This document shows positions 2,903 through 40,223 of a stretch of DNA of 40,223 nt, piece by piece. The stretch is taken from NCBI RefSeq assembly GCF_000702165.1, contig NZ_KL370867.1, positions 21,444 through 61,666 on the forward strand, in the 5' to 3' direction. Source of the stretch: Sharpea azabuensis DSM 18934 (GTDB lineage Bacteria > Bacillota_I > Bacilli_A > Erysipelotrichales > Coprobacillaceae). Position 1 is the first letter of the stretch; the number at the start of each line of letters is the position of its first letter. The notes under the pieces were generated by a model, which was given only the letters and a program-made list of their open reading frames with translations, was not told the DNA's origin and did not search any database. Position numbers and translations under genes: made by a program.

Positions 2903-3610
2903 ATGAACAAAGAATATCTGGAATGTGAGAAATATTATATATTTGCCGCACTGATCTTTATTGCAGGATTCTATGGCGGTTATACAATGACTGTGCGTGG
3001 CGGCTTGTTTGCGAATGCTGCGAGTGCCAACATGGTCTTATTTGCGATTGCGATAGCAATGCATAAATTCGAAAAAATTCATGTCTATATCCTGAGCTTT
3101 TTAGCCTACATGCTTGGCACGATTGTCAGCGAGCATTGCGGTCTGCTGGCCAAAAAAATCGGCCGGCTCAGATGGGATACCTATATGATTGGTATTGAAA
3201 TCATCTGGGTTATTCTTTTAGCCTTCTTGCCTTCAAGCGTTCCCGATCTTGTCTACCAGCTCTCTATTAACTTCATTTGTGCCATGCAGTTCAATACATT
3301 CCGTCAGGCTGAAGGCGTCGGTATGGCAACTGTCTTTATAACCAATCATACAAGACAGACTGGTAGCTATCTGACAAGATGGATAAGAAAGCCTTATGAA
3401 TTAACCTATCTTAAAAAATGTGCAAGACATTTTGGCATGATTCTTTGTTTCTTCCTAGGAGCACTGACTTCATCCTATTTTGGTCAATATTTGTATACAA
3501 AGACATTATTGATTGCAGTTGGCTTCTTGATAGTGATTTTTATTGATTTTGTCCATGCTGATCTTTACATTGAGAAAGATCGTATTCTTGAAACACCTCG
3601 TGGCCACTAG
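2903..3610 (+). CDS. DUF1275 (YoaK-like) family membrane protein
   Basis: A 235-residue integral membrane protein with about six hydrophobic segments. The first segment carries AGFYGGYTMTVRGGLFANA and is followed by ASANMV, the characteristic opening of the DUF1275/YoaK family, whose function is unknown. A basic cytoplasmic loop (TRWIRKPYELTYLKK) lies around residues 155-172. It has its own promoter and an AGGAG site at 2891-2895, and a terminator overlaps its stop codon. It shares its upstream region with divergent pncB, which leaves open a role in uptake of a pyridine precursor, but that is only a guess from context. Confidence 0.85.
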   Translation: MNKEYLECEKYYIFAALIFIAGFYGGYTMTVRGGLFANAASANMVLFAIAIAMHKFEKIHVYILSFLAYMLGTIVSEHCGLLAKKIGRLRWDTYMIGIEIIWVILLAFLPSSVPDLVYQLSINFICAMQFNTFRQAEGVGMATVFITNHTRQTGSYLTRWIRKPYELTYLKKCARHFGMILCFFLGALTSSYFGQYLYTKTLLIAVGFLIVIFIDFVHADLYIEKDRILETPRGH

Positions 3611-37699: not shown

Positions 37700-38633
37700 C
37701 ACTTTTTTTCTTTTCTTCAAGTCTTTCCAACGCCTGACGCGGACAAGCCTTATTATAGACTTCAATCAGTTTTTCCTGAGTCACATGAGTATATATTTGC
37801 GTTGTTGACAAAGAAGCATGACCGAGAAGTTCCTGCACAACTCTAATATCCATCCCTGCATCTAAGAGATGTGTCGCAAAGGAATGACGAATGGTATGGG
37901 GATGAATCTTGCGCGTTGGATCATAATCGCGCATGCAGCGATTCACAATATCTTCAACGCCACGATTAGTAAGCTGTTTGCCATGCTTATTAACAAAAAC
38001 TATATTGTGACTTTGATGAGTTGTCGCCATTAATTCATGGCGTGCCCCTTCTAGATAATCAACAAGCCAGACCTTAGCTTCATCATGAAACGGGACATAA
38101 CGATCTTTGTTTCCTTTACCACGAATAAAAAGAATCTGATGAACGAGATCGACATGATCGAGTGTCAAGTTAACCACTTCACTCACTCTTAGTCCACTCG
38201 CATACATCATCTCAAGCATCGCTTTATTACGCATTCCTAAATCGCTATCTGTATGAATGGAATCAAGTAAACCAAGCATATCATCAAGAAAGAGAAAGTC
38301 AGGATTGCGCTCTCCTGTTTTTAATGCACTCACAAGCATAAATGGATTATCTTCAACATATCCTTGTCTTCTTAAGAACTTAAAAAAAGAACGTAGGCTA
38401 GAAAGCTTATGATTGATAGAAGCATGGGATAAATGACGCTTGTTTAAAGCGACAAGATAGCTTCTAATAAGCGCATAGTCGCACTCTGTAAAATCTTGAT
38501 AAGCTTCTTGTCTAACATAAGCTATAAAATCATTGATCTCTCGCTGATATGAACTTACTGTCAAGGGCGAATAACGTTTTTGATAAGTAAGATAGTCAAG
38601 AAATGCATCTCTTTGTTTATCCATTGATTTCAT
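37692..38633 (-). CDS. xerC: Tyrosine recombinase XerC/CodV
   Basis: A 313-residue site-specific recombinase that resolves chromosome dimers at dif with a XerD partner. The N-terminal SAM-like core-binding domain spans about 1-105. The catalytic residues are R149 (ASGLRVSE), K173 (GKGNK), H246 and R249 (HPHTIRH), H272 (GHAS) and Y281 (IYTHV). It follows trmFO with a 17-base overlap, the trmFO-codV order of Bacillota, and this placement identifies it as a housekeeping Xer rather than a phage integrase. ATG 38624 is an alternative start; neither has a strong binding site, so coupling is likely. Confidence 0.95.
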
Positions 38634-39915
38634 CTAGGAAAGACTGCATTGTGGCAATGGCTCTTTTCGCATAGGCTTCCTTCTTTTCCTTTTTCTTAAC
38701 CTGTGGAATTAAGTCAGGTAGAATACCAAAGTTAGCCTTCATCGGCTGAAAATCAGTTGTTGAGGCATGAGTAATATAATAGCTCAAAGACCCCATCACT
38801 GTCTCTCGTGGGAAAACAAGAGGCTCTTTTTCTTGTAAGAGGCGAACCATGTTCTTTCCAGCTACAAGTCCGCTCTGGGCACTTTCAACATATCCTTCGA
38901 CGCCAGTCATCTGCCCCGCAAAAAATAAATCTTCACGATTCTTATATTGATATGTCTGTTTAAGATAGAGTGGAGAATTAAGGAAAGAATTACGATGCAT
39001 GACTCCATAACGCACAATTTTCGCATTTTCTAAGCCAGGAATCATATGAATAATTCGTTCCTGTTCACCCCATTTAAGATGCGTCTGGAAGCCAACAATA
39101 TTATAGAGCGTGCCAACCGCATTATCCTGTCGTAATTGAACAACCGCATAGGGACGTTTGCCATCATGTTCTAAGCCAACAGGCTTCATAGGACCAAAAA
39201 GCAGCGTCTGCTCACCACGGCGAGCAATCTCTTCAAAAGGCATACAGCCTTCAAAGAACTTCTCTTCACCATCATGTGGCTTCGCAACCTCAGCATGAAT
39301 CAAAGCATCATAAAATGCCTCAAATTCTTCTTTGGTCATTGGACAATTAATATATTCCGCATCCCCTTTATCATAGCGGCTCTTAAAATAAGCTTTATTC
39401 AAATCAATTGAATCCAATTCAATGATTGGTGCAGCTGCATCATAGAAATAAAAATATTCCTCCTGACCTAAAAGGCTTGCAATTTCTTTTGACAAAGCCG
39501 CACTTGTCAATGGTCCAGAAGCAATAATAGTAGGTCCTTCAGGTATCTTCGTCACTTCCTCATGAATGACATGTACAAGAGGATTTTCTGTAATTTCCTT
39601 TGTCACAGCCTTGGAAAAGCCTTCGCGATCCACCGCTAAAGAGCCACCAGCTGGTACTGCATGTAGGCGAGCTTGACGAATAATCAATGAATCATTCATT
39701 GTCATCTCTTCTTTCAAAACGCCAACAGCATTCTTCAAGCCATCCGCTCTTAGAGAGTTAGAACATACAAGTTCTGCAAATTGATCTGTCTTATGTGCTC
39801 CCGTTGACTTGACTGGGCGCATTTCATAGAGGTCAACAGCAATGCCAGCACTAACAAGCTGATGTACAGCTTCAACGCCGGCAAGACCGCCACCAATTAC
39901 ATTTACTTTTTTCAT
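38617..39915 (-). CDS. trmFO: Folate- and FAD-dependent tRNA U54 methyltransferase TrmFO
   Basis: A 432-residue flavoprotein (formerly Gid) that makes 5-methyluridine at position 54 of tRNA using methylene-tetrahydrofolate. The FAD-binding GGGLAGVEA (8-16) is followed by [13 protein letters not shown] with the conserved cysteine C51, and [17 protein letters not shown] is a family signature near 345. Start choice: the in-frame ATG at 39936 lies within the TATGAT -10 element and so is not transcribed, while ATG 39915 has GGTGA upstream. In other Bacillota topA precedes it; here a hairpin-rich IS-like block does. Confidence 0.96.
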
Positions 39916-39931
39916 TTTCATCACCGTGTGT

Positions 39932-39959
39932 ATCATAACATGTTTTTCCCTATTCGCAA
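39932..39959 (-). promoter_or_regulatory. Promoter of trmFO-xerC
   Basis: Read on the minus strand: TTGCGA (39954-39959), a 16-base spacer, then TATGAT (39932-39937). It begins only 9 bases from the hairpin block at 39968, so any insertion there left the promoter intact. Confidence 0.7.
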
Positions 39960-39967
39960 AAGAAAAT

Positions 39968-40110
39968 CAAAACCACGTCTAAAAGGCGTGGTTTGAACTG
40001 CGGCTATAAGCCTATGATACCTGCTCGCGTCTAAAGGCGCTTGCTTTCACTTCGTTCAAGCTACCGCTCTTGACGCTCGCTATCCCTCAAAGGGATTCTT
40101 TTTTTCTTTT
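39968..40110 (-). mobile_element. Probable right end of an IS200/IS605-type element (structured end)
   Basis: Hairpins are packed in series: AAACCACG/CGTGGTTT (39970-39994), GGCT/AGCC (40002-40012), a nested structure with GCGTC/GACGC outside (40027-40076) and GCTTG/CAAGC inside (40039-40061), and ATCCCT/AGGGAT (40082-40096). The CCACG...CGTGG palindrome close to GGCTTATAGCC on the minus strand resembles subterminal structures of IS605-family ends and the 3' part of TnpB guide RNAs. The element would continue beyond the window. The last hairpin also has a T-rich tail and could be a plus-strand terminator. Confidence 0.5.
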
Positions 40111-40113
40111 TTA

Positions 40114-40223
40114 CTACTTTGTTTTATTGTCTTTTATTTTTCCTTTTTCGCTTCTTTTTCTCTTCGTTGCGTTTGAAAATGGATCGCCGTATTCCTTGAC
40201 ACTCAGCTTGTCCACCATCTGGT
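40114..40223 (-). CDS. C-terminal end of an unidentified reading frame (partial)
   Basis: Read on the minus strand one frame stays open from the window edge to a TAG at 40114-40116 and encodes a lysine-rich tail of about 35 residues that begins QMVDKLSVKEYGDPF. It lies directly before the IS-like hairpin block, where the end of a tnpB or other transposase gene would be expected. A second frame is open for about 32 residues too, so the choice is uncertain. No domain can be recognised in so short a piece. Confidence 0.3.
   Translation of the reverse strand, partial: QMVDKLSVKEYGDPFSNATKRKRSEKGKIKDNKTK

Follow-up and report, generated by a model that had tools for sequence, protein, structure and literature searches.

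The window, a 40,223-nucleotide stretch of a Sharpea azabuensis DSM 18934 contig (C7), ends with the last base of that contig. Close to this end lies trmFO (38617 to 39936, minus strand; NCBIfam TrmFO, 1.6e-198), whose true start codon is probably at 39921 or 39915, inside the listed frame. Upstream of trmFO, and in the same direction, positions 39965 to 40223 of the minus strand form the right end of an insertion sequence that is present in several copies and is truncated here where the contig stops. Alignment with other copies identifies this part as the C-terminus of tnpA followed by the right end of an IS200-type element, of which only the last 259 bases are inside the window, because the window ends with the contig. 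The initial annotation had noted a block of hairpins starting at 39968, a lysine-rich frame ending at 40114 on the minus strand, and a terminal palindrome; all of these are where it placed them, with the refinement that the right boundary lies at about 39965 rather than 39968. Matches to the other copies begin at 39957 to 39965 on the trmFO side, and the element is taken to end with the tip GATT that the copies have in common (39965 to 39968, minus strand), with up to two T ambiguous. A trmFO promoter, TTGCGA-16-TATGAT, is predicted just outside the element (39932 to 39959, minus strand) by consensus match only (9/12).

The earlier suggestion that the block resembles an IS200/IS605 right end, and that further copies should be sought in the genome, proved correct. 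There are eight right-end copies rather than a single one, seven of which are at contig ends, as are six of the eight left ends, which is expected for a repeat in a short-contig assembly. The lysine-rich frame had been read as a possible tnpB, but it represents the C-terminal 35 codons of tnpA (40114 to 40221, minus strand), encoding a Y1 transposase. The longest copy of this gene, on contig C24, matches both Pfam Y1_Tnp (1.1e-33) and NCBIfam transpos_IS200 (4.4e-37) above cut-off, with its N-terminus lost at a junction. A profile of the C24 sequence and four relatives matches eight distinct solved transposase sequences, including that of ISHp608. An HVH motif and the tyrosine of EGFYVST/EGYYVST are invariant in five transposase sequences, and we take these to be the catalytic residues. 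The surroundings of the C24 copy (locus L013, 1-3400) are a mosaic of transposase remnants, in which the IS200 left end has been lost at a junction with another transposase gene and the right end is situated in a third; we take the neighbours of this copy to be transposase genes.

The tnpA of the window copy is not fully readable, as the contigs end inside the gene. Four full-length relatives, found in genomes of the same family, have tnpA as the sole gene between their ends according to the frames listed, and a copy in genome G001 spans about 0.82 kb by its coordinates. Judged from these sequences, the window element is of the IS200 type, carries tnpA only and measures roughly 0.8 kb. It shares with the E. 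coli IS200C and Salmonella IS200 elements the single tnpA gene, a Y1 HUH transposase, subterminal palindromes, the lack of target duplication and a left-end inverted repeat around the tnpA start, although protein identity to enterobacterial-type relatives is only about 50% (49% for L229). The element is an ordinary member of the IS200 group, and the variant part is its target rule, discussed below. Two kinds of shortened copy were also seen. An internally deleted IS200 in G001 (L104, C1:2451500-2454000, at about 900-1350) has its left end and tnpA start fused to the right-end block. Copies consisting only of a right end in G031, a genome of the same genus, were considered as miniature elements and rejected, all five fetched copies being at contig ends.

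The ends of the element have subterminal palindromes instead of terminal inverted repeats, among them CCACCTGCATAGCAGGTGG at the left end. On the right, reading along the minus strand, folding and a scan place a first hairpin, ATCCCTTTGAGGGAT, just past the tnpA stop (40082 to 40096). It is followed by GCGCCTTTAGACGC (40027 to 40040), which forms consensus helix 1 of the right-end core and is backed by the consensus structure and covariation. Consensus helix 2, GGCTTATAGCC (40002 to 40012), has 100% of its cells paired and three of its four pairs changed on both sides. Consensus helix 3, also seen in the consensus structure and its covariation, is the terminal (subterminal) palindrome (39970 to 39994, with arms at 39970-39980 and 39984-39994), which is followed by the tip TTTTGATT. 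For the minus strand of 39965-40113, predicted folding is better than that of any of 200 dinucleotide-preserving shuffles, at z -4.5 under DNA parameters and z -3.1 under RNA parameters. In an alignment of 79 distinct rows, which are part of the loci collected and were fitted to the structure, the share of paired cells is 97.7%, and both sides have changed in 13 of 18 pairs, a result equalled by 0 of 500 shuffles; a MAFFT alignment of the 16 seed sequences, not fitted to the structure, has such changes in 5 of 18 pairs. A covariance model built from 16 sequences gave 126 matches at E up to 0.01, weak and opposite-strand ones included. Many non-seed loci are matched, for example in Paenibacillus, Veillonella, Tetragenococcus and Lachnospiraceae, as is, weakly, the enterobacterial-type L229 (32 bits). 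By this comparative evidence the block forms a subterminal structure that is conserved and covaries, although covariation does not tell action as DNA from action as RNA. The role described for such structures in this family, in passages of PMC7290912, is that of single-stranded DNA bound by TnpA.

The initial annotation had also proposed that the hairpins might form the scaffold of a TnpB guide RNA. A structured 3' end in an IS200/IS605 element could suggest such a role, and the genome has eight TnpB-domain hits, so that we weighed a scaffold serving a TnpB encoded elsewhere in the genome; we regard it as very improbable. The neighbouring gene is tnpA, no tnpB is present in the four full-length relatives, and the four matches that an Rfam scan gave for the block (E up to 5) are weak and below the gathering score, so that a known RNA family was rejected as well. 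When the eight TnpB-domain loci were searched for the scaffold, the sole strong match was an IS200 right end lying where contig C1 starts; this right end, seen via two overlapping loci, was also the only strong match in a set of 31 loci that carry TnpB genes or other Y1 genes. The next matches were the opposite strand of that right end (19.8 bits) and L305, an IS605-type viral locus with a weak match 3' of its tnpA (2973-3063; 17.9 bits, E 0.0096), which is the one locus of that type that speaks for a scaffold. The sites of IS200, a T-tract behind a hairpin, are also unlike the TTAC/TTAT sites of IS605-type elements. With the block 3' of tnpA and the covariance model missing the genome's TnpB loci, a TnpB guide (omega) RNA was rejected. 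On C1 (1-1662), the IS200 right end lies about 100 nt upstream of another element, which has a tnpA (C1:195-554) and a TnpB domain (C1:1459-1662).

Where the element was inserted can be read from its flanks. The usual neighbour topA had been thought displaced or further out; it is found on contig C20 (TIGR01051, 2.4e-147), directly before a left end of the element. Synteny suggests that C20 and C7 carry the two ends of one copy. In G031, topA and trmFO adjoin without the element and with a terminator between them, the spacer reading GGGGTATGCCAATCCATACCTCTTTTGTATTTCTTTTTGCGA. The S. azabuensis genome has GGAGGTATGAAATCATACCTCTTTTGTA on the topA side up to the left end and, beyond the right end, TTTTCTTTTGCGA or TTCTTTTGCGA, depending on where two T are counted. 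Both topA sites carry a terminator-like hairpin, and the comparison with the empty site indicates an insertion into the T-tract of the topA terminator that duplicated no target sequence. The predicted trmFO promoter, whose motif and spacing are identical at the empty site, was left just outside the element. Three further left ends (on C44, C38 and C6), whose right-end partners on C68, C70 and C36 were recognised from flanking sequence, were compared in the same way. Their sites are empty in G031 in all three cases, with a hairpin and T-run present, and a target site duplication is absent in the four left/right pairs against the G031 empty sites, again with up to two T ambiguous. We consider it very probable that an IS200-type element occupies the T-tract at the topA intrinsic terminator, ahead of trmFO and co-directional with it, and that TnpA inserts 3' of the T-rich tail of the hairpin. 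The element, its transposase, the right-end hairpins, the left end, the empty site and the lack of a target duplication are visible in the DNA itself; the action of TnpA is our inference.

The same arrangement recurs at other copies. With a terminator score of 16 as the threshold, chosen after seeing the score table (12 to 20), 13 of 15 copies in the S. azabuensis and G031 genomes stand immediately behind a terminator-like hairpin, the exceptions being C65 and G031:C21. These 15 come from 16 left ends listed; G031:C76:31604 was left out, its first bases being unmatched and its site the same as that of C37, and C76:70354 in the G031 list is a match of only 29 bases. For related IS200s in named genomes and viral contigs, 80 of 506 loci were kept and 42 added, and of these 122, 111 had at least 400 nt upstream and 92 a left boundary, giving 89 distinct sites. 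A first score used fixed boundaries, and at the threshold of 16 was passed by 62 of 89 left ends, compared with 28 of 3340 random positions and 179 of 4000 control positions with T-rich tails. As its misses showed misplaced boundaries, a span of 50 positions was scored instead, and controls were put through the same span. Scored in this way, 79 of the 89 distinct left-end sites are terminator-like, whereas control spans taken from these loci pass in 82 of 4256 cases; 80 to 74 of the 89 sites pass at thresholds of 12 to 20. Ten of the 89 sites and two of the 15 fail the score, and several of the ten show a hairpin and T-run missed by the boundary or the loop limit. At the 48 of 79 sites placeable by motif, the left end lies 0-10 nt behind the stem, with a median of 5. 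IS200 copies were also found directly behind the right end of another IS200, at G001:C1:1216073-1217296, L152 and L207, as if that right-end hairpin had served as the target.

The IS605-type elements, such as IS608 and ISDra2, belong to the same transposase superfamily and have subterminal hairpins as well, but they carry tnpB in addition to tnpA and differ in their sites, which are rarely terminator-like. For this control, 28 loci were fetched and 23 used; with nine lacking the left-end motif and two duplicates, 12 rows were scored, and as L290 and L296 are one site these correspond to 11 distinct sites. Only one of the 11 is terminator-like (two of the 12 rows), while TTAC or TTAT precedes the element at 10 of the 11, as judged by eye. 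The single exception among the 11 is the L290/L296 site on viral contigs, where an IS605-type element lies behind a terminator-like hairpin.

The rule extends to IS200C of E. coli, where an IS200C-like match is present in 2477 of 5426 complete genomes. This set was fetched later and evaluated with the same score function and threshold; it comprises 27 regions fetched among the 60 rows listed of 2773 records, and represents 20 distinct sites, with the boundary put at the match start for L340 and L341, which are without the boundary motif. Nineteen of the 20 are terminator-like, compared with 2 of 960 control spans of equal length (15 positions), or 1 of 280 controls when a span of 44 positions is used. 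If a hairpin with any tail is accepted, all 20 sites pass, as do 95 of 960 controls at span 15 and 61 of 280 at span 44, so that the long span discriminates little without the T-tail. The sole site failing the terminator score is still behind a hairpin. The query included about six T of flank, so that rows flanked by T-rich sequence may have been favoured; rows whose match begins at base 14 or later represent 6 distinct sites, 5 of them terminator-like. At 17 of the 20 sites the annotated upstream gene is co-directional (galU, pgm, ydcL, csgA, yfeX, guaA, kdsA, fdnI, emrB, carB, potE, plaP, iolB and four others). IS200C is found at the pgm/potE intergenic hairpin in two strains, standing on its pgm side in one and on its potE side in the other (L317 and L334; NZ_OZ547164.1 and NZ_CP037910.1). 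Two plasmid copies, L332 and L333, seem to break up coding regions of the opposite strand: for L333 the record gives two gene pieces, and L332 is between or overlapping two hypothetical genes. Both lie behind a stem of about ten pairs, that of L332 having one mismatch and a poor T-tail.

A preference of this kind could arise as a by-product, if TnpA needed only a short T-rich motif and selection purged insertions from genes and promoters, so that those behind terminators survived. IS608 and other members of the family pick a short sequence by base pairing, according to passages of PMC7290912, intergenic T-runs are often terminators, and the placement of 17 of the 20 distinct E. coli sites behind a co-directional gene would fit as well. 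We nevertheless find this account unlikely: with the fixed-boundary score, positions with T-rich tails pass in far fewer cases than left ends do (179/4000 against 62/89), the left end stays within about 10 nt of the stem, the pgm/potE terminator hairpin is used from either side in different strains, and a hairpin also precedes the two plasmid copies that apparently interrupt coding regions. The association surely owes something to selection against harmful insertions, but such selection alone would not account for the tight spacing, the contrast with IS605-type elements or the two coding-region sites.

Alternatively, targeting might be coupled to transcription, with RNA polymerase pausing or release at terminators exposing single-stranded DNA or an RNA-DNA hybrid for TnpA. 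That nearly all targets are terminators read in the direction of tnpA would agree with this. The hairpins at L332 and L333, however, are inside coding regions on the other strand and are not terminators of co-directional genes, the copies at L152 and L207 lie behind the right end of another IS200, and passages of PMC5371812 describe the family as coupled to replication and the lagging-strand template. Disfavoured by these two pairs of sites, the coupling to transcription seems to us quite unlikely.

The reading that we prefer is recognition of DNA structure. From the insertion positions of surviving copies, rather than from new insertions, we infer that the target chosen by the IS200 TnpA is a DNA hairpin whose 3' side is T-rich. 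Elements of the IS200/IS605 family transpose by a peel-and-paste route via single-stranded DNA. TnpA, an HUH enzyme with one catalytic tyrosine, would bind the subterminal hairpins of the single-stranded element DNA, excise the element, and insert it on the 3' side of the T-rich tail of a DNA hairpin. A terminator resembles the element's own right end, in which a hairpin is followed by a T-rich tip ending in ATT. As a hairpin with a T-rich 3' side imitates the right end in this way, intrinsic terminators would be general landing sites. We think it likely that target choice in the IS200 group is made by such imitation, with terminators as general landing sites from Bacillota to E. coli and comparable hairpins serving also within genes.

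Landing behind a terminator would spare genes and may shield tnpA from read-through transcription. At the left end, an inverted repeat, ATCACCGTTCCTT...AAGGAACGGTGAT, surrounds a TATAAT motif before tnpA. In read-through RNA this repeat would cover the tnpA ribosome-binding site, while in RNA from the element's own predicted promoter, which lies inside the repeat, the site would stay uncovered. Sequestration of the ribosome-binding site is described for Salmonella IS200, and IS200 as apparently not mobile, in PMC12594629. The upstream terminator and the left-end inverted repeat fit a picture of self-restraint.

Insertion behind terminator stem-loops is described for group IIC introns (in part of PMC7923331), but these are retroelements that use reverse splicing and a reverse transcriptase, and the machinery is unrelated. 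"Mobile attenuators" are insertion-sequence 3' terminators located upstream of cellular genes, comparable in position to the right end upstream of trmFO, although our terminator scan did not list the right-end palindrome as a terminator; a figure legend of that paper takes insertion of the insertion sequences as nearly random. Our searches of an open-access library found no statement of a terminator preference for IS200, and the rule may already have been published elsewhere, for example in subscription journals.

If TnpA recognises a hairpin together with a T-tract, this would explain how the very common IS200-type elements spread with little harm. The target rule would separate the tnpA-only elements from their TnpB-bearing relatives, and it would predict where IS200 elements can alter termination between genes. 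It would also mean that these elements represent a structure-guided system for the insertion of single-stranded DNA, one that is directly testable.
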